DNA from: Billgrantia saliphila
GTDB taxonomy: Bacteria > Pseudomonadota > Gammaproteobacteria > Pseudomonadales > Halomonadaceae
NCBI RefSeq assembly: GCF_002930105.1
Contig: NZ_PJRN01000001.1
Location: 1-64,000, forward strand
DNA: 64,000 nucleotides
Direction of reading: 5' to 3'
In this document: positions 5,351-10,704 of the stretch, one piece after another
Numbering within the stretch: position 1 is the first letter of the stretch
How the letters are laid out: every line of letters starts with the position of its first letter
Made by a program: the position numbers and the translations under genes
Notes under the pieces: generated by a model
Seen by the model: only the letters and a program-made list of their open reading frames with translations
Told to the model about the DNA's origin: nothing
Databases searched by the model: none

Positions 5351-5374
5351 GGGCGCATGTCAGCTAACCATGGG

Positions 5375-5965
5375 ATGTCCGTGAGCCATCGACTCGAAGA
5401 CGTGATTGCCCTGTTCGACAGGCTCTTCCAGGCGCGCTTCAACACGCATCTCGTGCGTGGCGGCGACGAGCCGCTGTATCGTCCGGCCGATGCCGGCTGC
5501 CCTTACCATCGGGTCATTTTTGCGCGGGGTTACTATGCCAGTGCACTGCACGAGATCAGCCACTGGTGCATTGCCGGCGAGCGTCGCCGCCAGCTCGAGG
5601 ACTATGGCTACTGGTATCTACCCGACGGTCGAGATGCCGAGCAACAACGTCGCTTCGAGGCCGCCGAAGTGGCGCCACAGGCGCTCGAACTGCTGTTCTC
5701 CCGGGCCTGCGGGCTGCGCTTCCATGTCAGTGTCGATAACCTGGGCGGCAATGTCGAGGTGGACCGTGAGGCCTTCAGCGCTCGCGTCGAAGAGCGTGCC
5801 GCCCGTTACGAGCGAGAGGGGCTACCGCTCAGGGCCGCCGCCTTCCGTGCCGCCCTCCTGGCCTTCTACGCGGAGGGCGAGCCACTCTCCCGTGCCGTGA
5901 GCATCGGCCTGCGACACCTGGATCAGGCATATCCCTCGGCGGCCCAGGCCTCGCTGCCAAGCTGA
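5375..5965 (+). CDS. epmC: Elongation factor P hydroxylase EpmC
   Basis: A 196-residue protein matching EpmC (YfcM), which hydroxylates the beta-lysyl-lysine made on elongation factor P by EpmA and EpmB, helping ribosomes pass polyproline stretches. The metal-binding signature HEISHWCIAG sits at residues 59-68 and is followed by the family pattern EDYGYWYLPDGR. I chose ATG 5375 rather than 5357 because homologues begin close to the helix HRLEDVIALF and because a -10 hexamer lies just before 5357. EpmA and EpmB are not in this window. Confidence 0.88.
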   Translation: MSVSHRLEDVIALFDRLFQARFNTHLVRGGDEPLYRPADAGCPYHRVIFARGYYASALHEISHWCIAGERRRQLEDYGYWYLPDGRDAEQQRRFEAAEVAPQALELLFSRACGLRFHVSVDNLGGNVEVDREAFSARVEERAARYEREGLPLRAAAFRAALLAFYAEGEPLSRAVSIGLRHLDQAYPSAAQASLPS

Positions 5966-6774
5966 AGCAGCGGGGCCAGCGCCGGCATGGCTTGTCGAGC
6001 CGGGTAGGCCACGCCGATCGTCTGATGTATATCGAGCCCTTCCAGCGACCGACACTGCACGTCGGGGCGGTCCAGGATATCCGGCCAGGCCGGCACCAGC
6101 GAGGCGCCTACCCCGGCGGCCACCAGTCCCAGGGTGTATTCGATAGTGCGCAGACGCGCACGCACCTGGCAGCGCAAGCCGGCGGCATTCAGTGCGGTGG
6201 CCAACTGCTCCATGGCAGCACAAGGCTGGCGCCAGATGAACGGGAGCCCCTCGAGATCGACCAAGGCCACGGTACTCTTCAGGCCCAACGGATGTCCGCT
6301 GGGCAGTGCCAGGCAATAGTTGTCATGCCAGATCGGCTGAAAGGCCTCACCCGGTGACAGATCCTGCTCGCCGATAATGCGTGCGTCACAGCGCTCCTCT
6401 GGGTTGACCAAGGTCAATGCCAGGTTGTCGCCCTGTCCGATGAACTCCTTGAGCAGAGAGGTCATGCGGTTTGCGCCCAGCGAGCGCATCAATCCCAGCC
6501 GCACCGGAGTCGGCGGCGCGGGCGTGCGGAAAAGCCGCGTGATGGCACTGAGGCCCTCACTGACCCGGCGGGCCAGCGGATAGAGACGATGTCCCTCCTC
6601 GGTGGGGGTAATGCCACGGCGATGGCGCTCGAAGAGGGGGGTGCCCAGCCGCTCCTCGAGTTGGACTAGCGCCGTGGAGATCGACGGTTGGGCCACGTGG
6701 CAGCGCCGGGAAGCGGCACTGATCGAGCCGCACTCGTAGGCAGCGATGAAATAGCGCAGGCTTCGCACATCCAT
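5923..6774 (-). CDS. LysR family transcriptional regulator
   Basis: A 283-residue LysR-type regulator. The N-terminal winged helix-turn-helix is canonical (DVRSLRYFIAAYECGSISAA followed by QPSISTALVQLEERLGTPLF), and the remainder fits the periplasmic-binding-protein-like effector domain. It is divergent from the fused E1 dehydrogenase gene across a 77-bp gap holding a dyad suited to LysR proteins, so it probably controls that operon in response to a metabolite of the pathway. Its 3' end overlaps the 3' end of epmC by 43 bp. Effector unknown. Confidence 0.92.
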   Translation of the reverse strand: MDVRSLRYFIAAYECGSISAASRRCHVAQPSISTALVQLEERLGTPLFERHRRGITPTEEGHRLYPLARRVSEGLSAITRLFRTPAPPTPVRLGLMRSLGANRMTSLLKEFIGQGDNLALTLVNPEERCDARIIGEQDLSPGEAFQPIWHDNYCLALPSGHPLGLKSTVALVDLEGLPFIWRQPCAAMEQLATALNAAGLRCQVRARLRTIEYTLGLVAAGVGASLVPAWPDILDRPDVQCRSLEGLDIHQTIGVAYPARQAMPALAPLLQLGSEAWAAEGYA

Positions 6775-6798
6775 AAGATTGGCCTATAGCTGGGGCAG

Positions 6799-6813
6799 GA
6801 TATCGATATTATC
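6799..6813. promoter_or_regulatory. Candidate LysR-type operator between divergent genes
   Basis: The sequence GATA-N7-TATC forms a perfect interrupted dyad in the middle of the 77-bp gap between the LysR gene and the E1 gene. LysR-type boxes are commonly dyads of about 15 bp with a T-N11-A core, which this fits (T6801 to A6811 spans a shorter core, so the match is approximate). Confidence 0.4.
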
Positions 6814-6851
6814 TCTTTGGCTTTAGGGCGCGCTAGGCTGTAACCCAAGTC

Positions 6852-9101
6852 ATGGCAGCCTTGGAGTTCCACGTGCTCGAACCCTTATCCCAGGAGCAGC
6901 GCTTTCTTTCCGCGTTGCGTACCGGTGATTGGCCCGCGTCGGAACGGGCTTGGCGAATCGACGAGGTCGACCTCACTCCGGCTGAATTGATTGAGCTGTT
7001 TGAGACACAGTTGATGAGCCGACATCTCGATCTTCACGCACGGCGCTTGCAGGCGAGGGGCGAGGCCTTCTACACCATCGGTAGTGCCGGTCACGAGGGT
7101 AATGCTGCCATTGCGCGCGCTTTTCGCCACACGGATCCCGCCTTTCTGCACTATCGCGATGCCGCCTTCTTGCTGCAGCGTAGCCGTAGCGTGCCGGGCC
7201 AGACTCCGCTATGGGATCTGCTGCTGAGTTTCGCCGCCTCGGCGGAAGATCCCATTTCCGGCGGTCGACACAAGGTGCTGGGCTCGAAGGCTCTGCACGT
7301 ACCGCCACAGACGAGCACCATCGCTTCCCACCTGCCTAAGGCCATGGGGGCTAGCTACGGGATCGGGCTGTGGCGGCGATTGGGTGGCGGCGGGGAGTGG
7401 CCGGCCGACAGCGTGGTGATCTGCAGCTTCGGCGATGCCTCGTTCAATCACTCTACCGCCCAGGGGGCACTCAATGCCGCCGGCTGGGCGGCCTATCAAG
7501 GCATCCCCATGCCGCTGGTGATGGTTTGCGAGGACAATGGCATCGGCATCTCCACGCCAACCCCGAAGGGCTGGATCGAGGCCAGTATGCGTGCCCGTCC
7601 CGGCTTTCACTACCTGAGCTGCGACGGCCTCGATCTGCTCGACACTTGGCACGCCGCTCGCGAGGCGGAGCGCATCGCGCGGCGTCATCGGCAGCCGGTG
7701 TTCCTGCACATGCGCTGCGTACGTCTCTTCGGGCATGCCGGCTCCGATGCCCAGCAGGCCTACCTGGCCCCCGCGCGCATCAAGGCCGACGAGGCTCGCG
7801 ATCCGCTACTGGTCAGTGCCGGCCTGCTGCAGCGTCACGGCGTGCTCGACACAGACGCCATCGGCGCGCTTTATCACTCGGTGGCCGAGCGGGTGGCCTA
7901 TGTCGCCGAAGAGGCCATCCGTCGTCCCAAGCTGGAAACGGCCGAGCAGGTCATGACCAGCATCGTTCCGCCGATTCGCGCAAGTCGTGCACGTTCCTGG
8001 CAGGGCGAAGTGGATGCCACCCCCGCGCCCATGGCCAAGCTGCTCAACCAGGCCCTCATACGCTTGATGGCTCGATATCCCCACCTGGTGATGGCCGGCG
8101 AGGACATCGGACGCAAGGGTGGGGTGTACGGCGTCACTCAGCGTCTGCAGGCCCAGTTCGGGCCGCATCGAGTGATCGACACCCTGCTCGACGAGCAGAG
8201 CATTCTCGGTCTCGGTATCGGACTGGGGCAGAACGGCCTGGTGCCGATTCTGGAGATCCAGTTCCTGGCCTATCTGCACAACGCCGAGGACCAGTTGCGC
8301 GGTGAAGCGGCGACCTTAAGTTTCTTCTCCAATGGGCAGTACACGAATCCCATGGTGGTTCGCATCGCCGGGCTCGGCTACCAGAAGGGCTTCGGGGGCC
8401 ATTTTCATAACGACAACGCCATCGCCGTGCTGCGCGACATTCCCGGCTTGCTGGTGGCCTGTCCCTCGAACGCCGCCGACGCGGTGGGGTTGCTGCAGGA
8501 GGCGGTGCGCCTCGCCGAGGAGGAGCAGCGCGTGGTGGTGGTGCTCGAGCCGATCGCGCTCTACCACGCTCGCGACCTGCACGAGGAGGGGGATCAGCAG
8601 TGGTGCTTCGCCGATCCCGGGCCGGAGCATCGTCTGCCGATGGGCGAGCCCGGCCAGTGGGGCGAGGGGCGACAGCTGGCCATTCTCACCTACGGCAATG
8701 GTGTCTATCTCTCCCGCCAAGCCGCGGCACGACTCGAAGCCGAGGGGGTGGAAGCGAGAATCGTCGACTTGCGCTGGCTGACCGGCATCGATCACGACGA
8801 GGTGTATCGTCGAGTCGAAGGCTGCGAACAGATCCTGGTGGTGGACGAATGCCGCCGCAGCGGCTCGCCCAGCGAGGAGCTTGTCACCGCGCTGGTGGAG
8901 CGCGGCGTGGCCGGCGAGCGCCTGCATCGGCTGACCGCCGAGGACAGCTTCATTCCACTGGGACGGGCGGCCACGGTCACGCTGCCTTCGGTTGCCGCCA
9001 TCGTCGAGCAGGGTTTACGCCTCGCGTCACCCAGCATGAAGCGCAACGAAGCAGCCGTGAAGACGGCCGACAAGGTATCGGCAGGGAGCAACGAAGCATG
9101 A
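6852..9101 (+). CDS. Fused E1 alpha-beta thiamine-dependent 2-oxo-acid dehydrogenase
   Basis: A 749-residue protein joining both halves of a heterotetrameric-type E1 in one chain. Residues about 40-370 are E1-alpha-like: the thiamine diphosphate motif runs from GDASFNHSTAQGALNAAGW to EDNGIGIS. Residues about 390-735 are E1-beta-like: GEDIGRKGGVYGVT, LDEQSILGLGIGLGQNG and FGGHFHNDNA. E1 enzymes decarboxylate 2-oxo acids and pass the acyl group to lipoyl-E2. No E2 or E3 gene is nearby. It overlaps the next gene by ATGA, so the two are coupled. Resemblance is to branched-chain or acetoin-type E1 rather than AceE; substrate unknown. Confidence 0.85.
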   Translation: MAALEFHVLEPLSQEQRFLSALRTGDWPASERAWRIDEVDLTPAELIELFETQLMSRHLDLHARRLQARGEAFYTIGSAGHEGNAAIARAFRHTDPAFLHYRDAAFLLQRSRSVPGQTPLWDLLLSFAASAEDPISGGRHKVLGSKALHVPPQTSTIASHLPKAMGASYGIGLWRRLGGGGEWPADSVVICSFGDASFNHSTAQGALNAAGWAAYQGIPMPLVMVCEDNGIGISTPTPKGWIEASMRARPGFHYLSCDGLDLLDTWHAAREAERIARRHRQPVFLHMRCVRLFGHAGSDAQQAYLAPARIKADEARDPLLVSAGLLQRHGVLDTDAIGALYHSVAERVAYVAEEAIRRPKLETAEQVMTSIVPPIRASRARSWQGEVDATPAPMAKLLNQALIRLMARYPHLVMAGEDIGRKGGVYGVTQRLQAQFGPHRVIDTLLDEQSILGLGIGLGQNGLVPILEIQFLAYLHNAEDQLRGEAATLSFFSNGQYTNPMVVRIAGLGYQKGFGGHFHNDNAIAVLRDIPGLLVACPSNAADAVGLLQEAVRLAEEEQRVVVVLEPIALYHARDLHEEGDQQWCFADPGPEHRLPMGEPGQWGEGRQLAILTYGNGVYLSRQAAARLEAEGVEARIVDLRWLTGIDHDEVYRRVEGCEQILVVDECRRSGSPSEELVTALVERGVAGERLHRLTAEDSFIPLGRAATVTLPSVAAIVEQGLRLASPSMKRNEAAVKTADKVSAGSNEA

Positions 9102-10192
9102 ATCCGATCCGTGATGTTTCCCGTTCCTCCTCGGTCCGCGAGCGTCTGTTGATCGTATGTCCCGGTCGCGGAACCTACAACGCCGCCGAGTGGGGCACGC
9201 TGGGCCGCCATGCCGGTGGCTGCGACTGGCTGGCGCGCTTCGACGGCCAGCGTCGCGAAGCCGACCTGCCGAGTCTGACCGAGTTGGACGGTGAGATTCC
9301 CTTCCGCCAGAGTCTTCACGGTCGAGGTGAGCATGCGTCGCCGCTGATCTACGCCTGTGCCTGGGCCGATTTACTCGCCATCGACCGCGAGCGCTACGAG
9401 ATCGCCGCGGTGACGGGCAATTCCATGGGCTGGTACATTGCCCTGGCGGCGTCGGGCGCCCTGGATCCCGACGAGACGCTGCAGCTGATCGGTACCATGG
9501 GGCGATTGATGCAGGAGACGCTGGCAGGCGGTCAGGTGATCTACCCCTGGGTCGACGAAGCGTGGCGGCCGGACTGGCTGCTACGGCGGGAGTTGCTCGG
9601 ACTGATCGAGCGCATTCACGGCAACGAGGATGCCGAGCTGTACCTGTCCATCGACCTTGGGGGGATGCTGGTGTTCGGCGGCAATGAGGCCGGCCTGGCG
9701 CGGCTGACGAAGGCGCTGGCGCCGCGCGACCGCTTTCCCCTGCGGCTGCATCAGCATGCCGCTTTCCACACGCCCCTGCAGTTCGGTGTCAGGCAGACGG
9801 CGCGCAGACAGCTTTCCGCCGAGCCGTTCCGTGCCCCCGAAGTGCCCTTGATCGACGGTCGCGGTCATGTCTGGACGCCCTGGAGCAGCGATCCTGAGCG
9901 TCTTTGGGACTACACATTGGGCGAGCAACTGGTGGCGCCATACGACTTCACCGCGGCAATCAAGGTTGGAGTGCGCGAATTTGCACCGGATCGCATCGTG
10001 ATACCCGGCCCGGGAGCGACGCTGGGTGGTGCCACGGCTCAAGCCTTGATCCAGCTCGGCTGGCGGGGGCTGGACAGCAAGGCGAGTTTCCAGGCGCAGC
10101 AGGCGCGGGATCCGGTATTGCTGTGCATGGGCATTCCCGAGCAGCGCGAGCGACTCGTCCGCGACACCGAGCCGATGCCGCTCGACGTCTGA
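9098..10192 (+). CDS. Malonyl-CoA:ACP transacylase-like acyltransferase
   Basis: A 364-residue protein of the FabD/acyltransferase fold. The segment LLIVCPGRGTYNAAEW replaces the usual FPGQG opening, GNSMGWYIAL supplies the nucleophile elbow (serine in G-N-S-M-G), and HQHAAFHTPLQ supplies the conserved catalytic histidine region. The family moves acyl groups between CoA and a carrier thiol. The C-terminal half (GPGATLGGATAQALIQLGW) matches the end of FabD-like domains. The start ATG overlaps the stop of the E1 gene, so both are made together. This is not housekeeping FabD, which sits with other fab genes. True acyl donor and acceptor are unknown. Confidence 0.75.
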   Translation: MNPIRDVSRSSSVRERLLIVCPGRGTYNAAEWGTLGRHAGGCDWLARFDGQRREADLPSLTELDGEIPFRQSLHGRGEHASPLIYACAWADLLAIDRERYEIAAVTGNSMGWYIALAASGALDPDETLQLIGTMGRLMQETLAGGQVIYPWVDEAWRPDWLLRRELLGLIERIHGNEDAELYLSIDLGGMLVFGGNEAGLARLTKALAPRDRFPLRLHQHAAFHTPLQFGVRQTARRQLSAEPFRAPEVPLIDGRGHVWTPWSSDPERLWDYTLGEQLVAPYDFTAAIKVGVREFAPDRIVIPGPGATLGGATAQALIQLGWRGLDSKASFQAQQARDPVLLCMGIPEQRERLVRDTEPMPLDV

Positions 10193-10227: not shown

Positions 10228-10704
10228 TCAGATATCCCCCAGACGCTCGTGAAGACGGAGCATGACCTCCACCTCGTGCTCGGGCCGCAGTGGCTCGAGC
10301 CCCATCTCGCCGAACAGCTCGTTGCGTGCGCGGCTCCATTCGCCGACGGTGAGGTCGGGATACAGACTGTCGGCCGGGGCCAGCTCGACGAAGGGATCGA
10401 TGCCGTAAGTATCGAAGAGTCGCCCCAGCGCCGCTTCGTCCGCGCTGACGCCGGCGGTGAACAGGGTGGCGTTGAAGTGATCGCTCTCCAGTTCTCGGAT
10501 CACGTCCAGAGGGCTGGCCCCGAAGCTGTGCAGCTCCTCCATGCTGTAGCCGTTGAGTTCATTGAACTCATCGTCGAGCCAGTCGTCGTCCGGCTGGATC
10601 AGCGTGTGCTTGATGCGACCATCGGGCAGTACCCAGGCGATCGCCAGAGGCAGGTCGTTATCGTTACCGGTCTCCACGGCGATGAATCCGGGAATGTCGG
10701 CCAT
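10228..10704 (-). CDS. Degenerate DnaQ/exonuclease-fold-like protein beside tatD
   Basis: A 158-residue acidic protein without a named family known to me. Its order of elements resembles a DEDD exonuclease domain: FIAVETGNDNDLPLAIAWVLPDG at the ExoI position, then LNGYSMEELHSFGASPLDVI like the usual his-gly-ile and helix region, then NATLFTAGVSADEAALGRLF at the ExoII position. The metal-binding acids are mostly absent (VET where DxE is expected), so activity is unlikely. The gene starts at ATG 10704, one base after the tatD stop, with GGAG upstream, so it is coupled to tatD. The fold is my inference. Confidence 0.6.
   Translation of the reverse strand: MADIPGFIAVETGNDNDLPLAIAWVLPDGRIKHTLIQPDDDWLDDEFNELNGYSMEELHSFGASPLDVIRELESDHFNATLFTAGVSADEAALGRLFDTYGIDPFVELAPADSLYPDLTVGEWSRARNELFGEMGLEPLRPEHEVEVMLRLHERLGDI

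Follow-up and report, generated by a model that had tools for sequence, protein, structure and literature searches.

The locus and its genes

The first 64,000 nucleotides of contig NZ_PJRN01000001.1 of Billgrantia saliphila (assembly GCF_002930105.1), which as a whole we call the window, carry an overlapping gene pair: a fused alpha-beta E1 of the 2-oxoacid dehydrogenase type, dependent on thiamine diphosphate (ThDP), and a protein with the fold of FabD, the malonyl-coenzyme A (CoA):acyl carrier protein (ACP) transacylase. The pair stands beside a divergent LysR-type regulator (Table 1). The nearest records to this genome are from Billgrantia and Halomonas, i.e. the Halomonas group. We found that the pair is real and widespread, that the FabD-like gene nearly always accompanies the E1 but not the reverse, and that the neighbours of related loci point to lysine catabolism by way of 2-oxoadipate.

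Table 1. Features of the locus, in coordinates of the window
Feature	Position	Strand	Basis
LysR-type regulator, divergent from E1	5923..6774	-	Pfam HTH_1 and LysR_substrate
GATATCGATATTATC, T-N11-A type box with GATA-N7-TATC inside; probable LysR site	6799..6813	.	Alignment, box count
TAGGCT, putative -10-like hexamer of the E1 promoter	6834..6839	+	Conserved in intergenic alignment
Fused E1 alpha-beta, ThDP-dependent 2-oxoacid dehydrogenase E1; proposed 2-oxoadipate E1	6852..9101	+	Pfam/NCBIfam, PDB relatives, alignment
ATGA stop/start overlap of the E1 and FabD-like genes	9098..9101	+	Sequence
FabD-fold serine acyl-transfer enzyme	9098..10192	+	PGRGTYN, GNSMGWY, FHT motif with His224; Met134 at the FabD Arg117 position

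The preliminary description of this DNA had recognised an E1 alpha-beta fusion that overlaps the following acyltransferase gene by ATGA, and both statements hold: three E1 domains lie in one open reading frame (ORF), and the ATG at 9098 shares the letters ATGA with the E1 stop. The domains are E1_dh (residues 52-362; 86.9 bits), Transket_pyr (394-565; 93.0 bits) and Transketolase_C (605-699; 57.0 bits), all exceeding the Pfam cut-offs. The true start is probably not the ATG at 6852, which is not conserved among 25 aligned loci of the genus, and is probably the GTG matching 6873, which is preceded by GGAG and common to most of them. His295, His517, His519, Glu448, Gly194-Asp195 and Asn229, which we take to be catalytic or ThDP-site residues, are unchanged across 87 rows from four groups; the ThDP motif reads GDA..EDN and not GDG..NN. 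One relative (L184, G031:C1:3404116-3406343, a one-contig genome) has its E1 in two overlapping frames next to an intact FabD-like gene, owing to either a frameshift or a sequencing error.

The second protein had been called malonyltransferase-like with a FabD nucleophile elbow, and one half of this label stands. The elbow, GNSMG, occupies residues 107-111, and the AlphaFold model (mean predicted local distance difference test score of 92) has the complete FabD fold. Its top Foldseek matches are FabD structures (3k89, E 9.9e-18), and structural comparison gives a VIA Z of ~33 with root-mean-square deviations of 2.2-3.5 in the top rows. Of 94 distinct FabD-like sequences, all have His224 and 93 have Ser109, the other showing a gap there. 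The malonyl half of the label is doubtful, because the malonyl-binding arginine (Arg117 of FabD, its equivalent position being taken from alignments) is Met in 92 of the 94, with one Thr and one gap. The protein matches no Pfam family at E 0.001, scores 28.8 bits against a FabD family cut-off of 260.9, and scores 38.1 bits against a cut-off of 297.9 for MdcH (malonate decarboxylase epsilon). With family scores below cut-off and the malonyl-binding arginine absent, we rejected malonyl transfer or a role in fatty-acid synthesis; judged by its residues, the protein is probably no simple malonyl transferase. Two other departures from FabD are nearly fixed, each in 93 of the 94 sequences: Asn, not His, precedes the catalytic Ser, and the oxyanion Gln is replaced by Arg (Arg24). 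We speculate that a longer dicarboxylate such as glutaryl could be bound by this conserved arginine. Since loss of Arg117 also marks PksD-type hydrolases, the activity may be either acyl transfer to CoA or hydrolysis.

The LysR and E1 genes are separated by a gap of 77 bp (6775-6851). EpmC, the elongation factor P hydroxylase (5357-5965), lies just past LysR, and in most of the genus genomes fetched EpmC and the gene at 10231-10695 bracket the E1 locus.

Occurrence of the pair and of E1 alone

The related loci analysed here are the best 80 of 340 from a pattern search with the window's own FabD-like protein, with up to 8 kb on each side where the contig allows. Since the patterns derive from that protein, this sample favours loci having its gene, and the less biased counts are those from 90 genomes of the genus and 398 genomes of the phylum. 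Of the genus genomes, 81 of 90 reach 90% completeness with contamination no higher than 5%; the set includes incomplete assemblies, and gaps in these may account for a few absences. In the phylum searches, the best five (FabD-like) or two (E1) first-look candidates were scored per genome, and copies may be missed. Counts at the level of the genus locus refer to 56 rows, the window and 55 of the 60 other E1 genomes, of which 25 carry the pair and 31 the E1 only; G003, G030, G093 and G098 (broken contigs) and G105 are left out.

The outcome that the preliminary description had named as a refutation, a FabD-like gene standing mostly apart from E1, is not seen, and the co-conservation for which it had asked is observed. 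In the phylum sample the FabD-like protein occurs in 16 genomes and the E1 in 29, all 16 falling within the 29, and by table coordinates the E1 is directly upstream on the same strand in 16 of 16. The E1 is likewise found in 78 of the 80 related loci, and in 77 of these 78 no more than 250 bp (measured between alignment ends) separates it from a FabD-like gene downstream in the same orientation. The two exceptions are L059, where the contig is cut, and L076.

The reverse dependence does not hold. Among the 90 genus genomes, 61 have the E1 and 26 the FabD-like gene, 25 of the latter together with the E1 (in the remaining one, G024, the FabD-like gene lies at the start of a contig), so that 36 of the 61 E1 genomes are without the FabD-like gene, as are 13 of the 29 E1 genomes in the phylum sample. 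The E1-only genus loci keep their flanks, the flanking gene 'dn' in 31 of 31 and EpmC in 28 of 31 (gene orders were compared for 14), which places them at the same genomic site. On the E1 tree the presence of the FabD-like gene changes state five times, at least four of these on starred branches, a count that cannot separate gain from loss; repeated loss is the likely direction, because more distant relatives (L025-L028, L036) have the gene. The catalytic His and ThDP-site residues are intact in 42 rows of E1 without the partner. An E1 that is often found without the FabD-like gene and keeps its catalytic residues should have another acyl acceptor, which suggests that the FabD-like protein is accessory to E1.

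The regulator follows the FabD-like gene and not the E1. All 25 pair-bearing genus loci have LysR and none of the 31 E1-only ones does, neither LysR nor the FabD-like gene ever occurring singly, and the 15-bp box (up to two mismatches) lies 5' of E1 in 24 of 25 versus 0 of 31. In other words, LysR, box and FabD-like gene appear and disappear jointly while the E1 stays. The preliminary description had noted the divergent LysR, the 77-bp gap and a GATA-N7-TATC dyad; the dyad was recovered inside the box, and this pattern makes it more than a chance occurrence. The TAGGCT hexamer is also present in four of the six E1-only upstream stretches displayed.

We looked for traces of the partner in the E1 itself. 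In the alignment of genus rows, residues marking its presence come down to a single fixed difference, at position 25, which is uninformative. Relaxed selection on E1 without the partner was considered and set aside: the ratio of nonsynonymous to synonymous differences (pN/pS) is higher in its absence, 0.33 versus 0.185 (pS 0.35-0.5). The ratio for the flanking 'dn' is likewise raised (0.20 versus 0.115), so the increase is not clearly specific to E1; that of EpmC is unchanged.

A divergent group of fused E1 proteins (48-51% identity) from two other gammaproteobacterial families has no FabD-like gene in any of the members searched. Eight of its nine members were fetched (L205-L211 and L221, from G197, G140, G390, G503, G319, G260, G408 and G499; G201 was left out), and a GcdH-like gene (51-52%) lies a few kb away in four of the eight loci.

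Pathway neighbours and the proposed role of the pair

The preliminary description knew of no described pathway with this pair; the neighbours of its relatives point to one. Neighbour clusters were built from ORFs of at least 80 aa, and ten of the 60 listed clusters were identified by family searches. Glutaryl-CoA dehydrogenase (GcdH; best PDB match human glutaryl-CoA dehydrogenase 1sir, E 1.5e-190) occurs in 35 of the 80 related loci, all among the 54 non-Halomonas loci and L076 included, and in 29 loci it immediately precedes E1 in the same orientation. HglS, the 2-oxoadipate dioxygenase/decarboxylase, is directly upstream of the pair in four Halomonas loci (745.8 bits against a cut-off of 550 for the L020 copy), piperideine-6-carboxylate dehydrogenase (P6CDH) is found in eight of 80 (the L051 copy scoring 824.1 bits, cut-off 730) and a saccharopine/lysine-dehydrogenase-like gene (Sacchrp_dh_C) in six of 80. 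At least one of these four is present in 42 of the 80 loci (38 of 54 non-Halomonas, 4 of 26 Halomonas-group). The most complete versions of the proposed route are the gene runs GcdH, E1, FabD-like, P6CDH and saccharopine/lysine-dehydrogenase-like gene in L051, and class I/II aminotransferase, GcdH, E1, FabD-like and P6CDH in L220 (4213-11380). All of these pathway enzymes meet at 2-oxoadipate or glutaryl-CoA. With lysine and glutaryl-CoA genes beside the relatives' loci, 2-oxoadipate is the most likely substrate for decarboxylation by the E1. Beyond the genus, GcdH-E1 is found without the FabD-like gene in G117, G442 and G191, so the link between E1 and GcdH is independent of that gene.

Within the genus, the FabD-like gene goes together with P6CDH, which is present in 20 of 25 pair-bearing versus 5 of 31 E1-only rows (Fisher p 2e-6). 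In the window genome itself HglS, a LysR and P6CDH form one island away from the pair (L130:7067-12403), and a GcdH elsewhere is 75% identical to that of L057. The LysR of this island is 83-85% identical to the LysR adjoining the E1-FabD-like pair in L017, L020 and L027. From Ruegeria pomeroyi, a lysine dehydrogenase and an aminoadipate-semialdehyde dehydrogenase are reported with consecutive locus tags, and several lysine-pathway genes are stated to be experimentally verified (PMC4334477).

An E1 of the alpha-beta type requires an oxidant and an acceptor, normally the lipoyl group of an E2. That no E2 or E3 lies nearby, as the preliminary description had remarked, is true of the related loci in general: queries with the E2, E3 and AccB of the window's own genome gave no match at E 1e-6 in the 80 loci, nor did its E1 of 2-oxoglutarate dehydrogenase (OGDH). 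A dedicated E2/E3 always nearby, which would have spoken against the pair as a unit, is therefore not what is seen (0 of 80 loci); outside these loci, a distant E1-only relative, G408, has an OGDH-type E2/E3 piece ~5 kb away. The window genome has three full-length E2 matches, none near the pair, which stand beside E1 genes of the OGDH, branched-chain and pyruvate dehydrogenase (PDH) types, names that were assigned from gene order and sequence. A dedicated E2 elsewhere in this genome was sought and rejected, the only match besides those three covering 51 positions with an internal stop.

We propose the following account, to which we give an even chance. The fused E1 would serve lysine catabolism as the E1 of a bacterial 2-oxoadipate dehydrogenase, decarboxylating 2-oxoadipate on ThDP and loading the glutaryl group onto the lipoyl arm of a borrowed housekeeping E2 of the OGDH, branched-chain or PDH type. 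Borrowing is suggested because there is no E2 in the 80 loci, the three genomic E2s have their own E1s, and the E1 occurs without its partner. The LysR, through its presumed effector, would induce the FabD-like protein and the E1 together during lysine use. The FabD-like protein might then remove glutaryl from the lipoyl arm as an acyl-Ser109 ester and give it to CoA (less likely to water), and this unloading would keep the borrowed E2 core, ill-fitted to glutaryl, from stalling. The resulting glutaryl-CoA would pass to glutaryl-CoA dehydrogenase. We favour an unloading role because of the accessory status of the protein and because of a human precedent, in which glutaryl stalls on the lipoyl-E2o and the serine hydrolase ABHD11 clears it (PMC12643935). 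The accessory status, the joint absence with LysR and box, and the co-occurrence with P6CDH would fit an enzyme needed at high lysine flux.

Several observations weigh against this account. No such pathway gene is found beside the pair in the window, in 22 of the 26 Halomonas-group loci or in 16 of the 54 others, some of which are on short contigs, and 2-oxoadipate was assigned as the E1 substrate entirely from gene neighbours. HglS, a consumer of 2-oxoadipate, is already in the window genome, and it does not track the FabD-like gene among the genus rows (14 of 25 versus 12 of 31, p 0.28). Finding GcdH in a genus genome is uninformative, as 87 of the 90 have it. The P6CDH association contains only four independent contrasts, and a tree-based sign test is not significant. 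Neither HglS nor P6CDH is present in 19 of 31 E1-only and 4 of 25 pair-bearing rows, where the E1 may thus have another substrate. Glu417 of E1 is unchanged in pair-bearing rows and is Gln in 7 of 31 E1-only rows, so in some of these the function of E1 may be decaying or changed. In L076 (6779-10519), a Micavibrio metagenome-assembled genome, the FabD-like gene and GcdH stand back to back, with P6CDH alongside and the E1 not adjacent, an arrangement that ties the FabD-like gene itself to glutaryl-CoA genes. Lastly, the residues in which the FabD-like protein departs from FabD resemble those of acyl hydrolases.

A bolder version, which we regard as unlikely, has the FabD-fold protein replacing the E2 catalytic core, that is, acting as a glutaryl-lipoyl:CoA glutaryltransferase for the orphan E1 with any cellular lipoyl arm. 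If true, this would be a 2-oxoacid dehydrogenase system that moves its acyl group to CoA by a serine ester and not by the histidine of a CAT-like E2.

Unlikely in our judgement is a proofreading hydrolase of PksD/PedC-like fold and ABHD11-like function, which would free the lipoyl arm or a carrier of stalled acyl groups by hydrolysis and perform no transfer; the glutarate released could be reactivated by a CoA transferase. The Met at the Arg117 position and the Asn before the catalytic Ser fit this view, the missing arginine having been called diagnostic of acyl hydrolases (PMC11775670), and the gene is absent from many E1-bearing genomes, as an editor would be; the ABHD11 precedent (PMC12643935) applies here as well. 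However, in known hydrolases of this kind the oxyanion residue is Gln or His and the catalytic Ser often lies in G(A/S/V)SL, where the present protein has Arg24 and GNSMG, and PksD is only trace-active on malonyl, which is charged like glutaryl (PMC11775670). The tight overlap and near-constant adjacency also suggest a stoichiometric partner of E1 more than an editor.

It is improbable, though less so than the last case below, that the acyl group is a different one from another 2-oxo acid, or that the FabD-like protein transfers CoA-bound glutaryl to ACP, for instance toward pimeloyl or biotin precursors, in the way of BioZ with glutaryl-CoA. The E1-only rows without P6CDH and HglS would agree with this, FabD-fold relatives mostly serve ACP, and glutaryl-CoA does feed biotin synthesis in alphaproteobacteria (PMC7645780). 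Nonetheless, the neighbours are lysine and glutaryl-CoA genes, with no carrier-protein or biotin gene in the ten identified clusters, although small carriers fall below the ORF limit.

Direct hand-over of the acyl group from E1 to the serine of the FabD-like protein and from there to CoA or ACP, without the involvement of a lipoyl protein, had been suggested in the preliminary description. The overlapping genes, the same-strand adjacency and the lack of an E2 match nearby speak for it, but it is very improbable: the E1 repeatedly occurs without the FabD-like gene with its catalytic residues kept (36 of 61 genus and 13 of 29 phylum genomes), the ThDP enamine must undergo a two-electron oxidation, normally by lipoyl, before a serine can take over its acyl group, and the recurrent oxidoreductases of the loci are lysine and glutaryl-CoA enzymes, none of them an evident oxidant.

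Comparison with known systems

Our searches of the open-access literature, outside which most subscription papers and preprints lie, returned no paper that describes the E1-FabD-like pair by title or abstract and none that names bacterial genes for the conversion of 2-oxoadipate to glutaryl-CoA; so far as this literature shows, the pair is uncharacterised. A 2-aminoadipate route to glutaryl-CoA is described for Phaeobacter inhibens (PMC5653290), whereas the route described for Pseudomonas putida has HglS turn 2-oxoadipate into 2-hydroxyglutarate instead, bypassing glutaryl-CoA (PMC7286885). The excerpted text of a PLoS Genet 2022 gap-filling paper holds no passage on the step from 2-oxoadipate to glutaryl-CoA. 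The conserved GcdH-E1-FabD-like operon of Alpha- and Gammaproteobacteria would fill this gap, and if the FabD-like enzyme does unload glutaryl-lipoyl, it would be a bacterial system for the stalling lately reported in human cells. Drueppel et al., the cited source of the Phaeobacter inhibens route, may propose candidate genes. For annotation, the second gene of the pair should not be read as a malonyltransferase.

The fused E1 resembles the branched-chain/pyruvate-type alpha2beta2 E1 in having identical domains (PF00676, PF02779 and PF02780) in identical order, with the E1 histidines kept, and by sequence its nearest PDB relatives are the beta and alpha subunits of 2-oxo acid, pyruvate and branched-chain E1 enzymes. 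Unlike these enzymes it is a single chain, has no E2/E3 of its own adjoining and has a FabD-like partner. Seven NCBIfam models match it, each with a score that stays under the cut-off, and the segment GRQMPVHYG of the human branched-chain E1 alpha (BCKDH) aligns to GRH-KV-LG, with extra basic residues. The human 2-oxoadipate dehydrogenase (DHTKD1 with shared DLST) is similar in the proposed conversion of 2-oxoadipate to glutaryl-CoA and in the proposed sharing of an E2, but the architecture of DHTKD1 is of the OGDH type, unlike the fused E1; the window genome's OGDH E1, which stands in for DHTKD1, has no match in the 80 loci. No FabD-like partner of the human enzyme is known to us. Its sharing of the E2 with OGDH is documented (PMC12643935).

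Like FabD, the FabD-like protein has the whole predicted fold and the Ser-His dyad. Unlike FabD, with which it shares ~17-22% identity, it has Met for Arg117, GNSMG for GHSLG and GRGT for GQGS (FabD motifs that we give partly from general knowledge). The lack of the malonyl-binding arginine in a FabD fold is shared with the PksD/PedC acyl hydrolases of trans-acyltransferase polyketide synthases (PMC11775670), from which the protein differs in the Arg at the oxyanion position, the Asn before Ser and the absence of G(A/S/V)SL; no polyketide synthase gene is among the ten identified neighbour clusters. HglS also uses 2-oxoadipate, as an enzyme unrelated to either member of the pair. Finally, the arrangement of the window locus resembles GcdR-gcdH of Pseudomonas putida, where a divergent LysR with a T-N11-A box and an inverted repeat around 7 bp controls glutaryl-CoA dehydrogenase (PMC6667623). 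The window likewise has a divergent LysR, this type of box and an inverted repeat around 7 bp; the likeness is one of arrangement, and the boxes differ in sequence, being GATATCGATATTATC in the window and GTGACAAAATATCAC for P. putida GcdR (PMC6667623).

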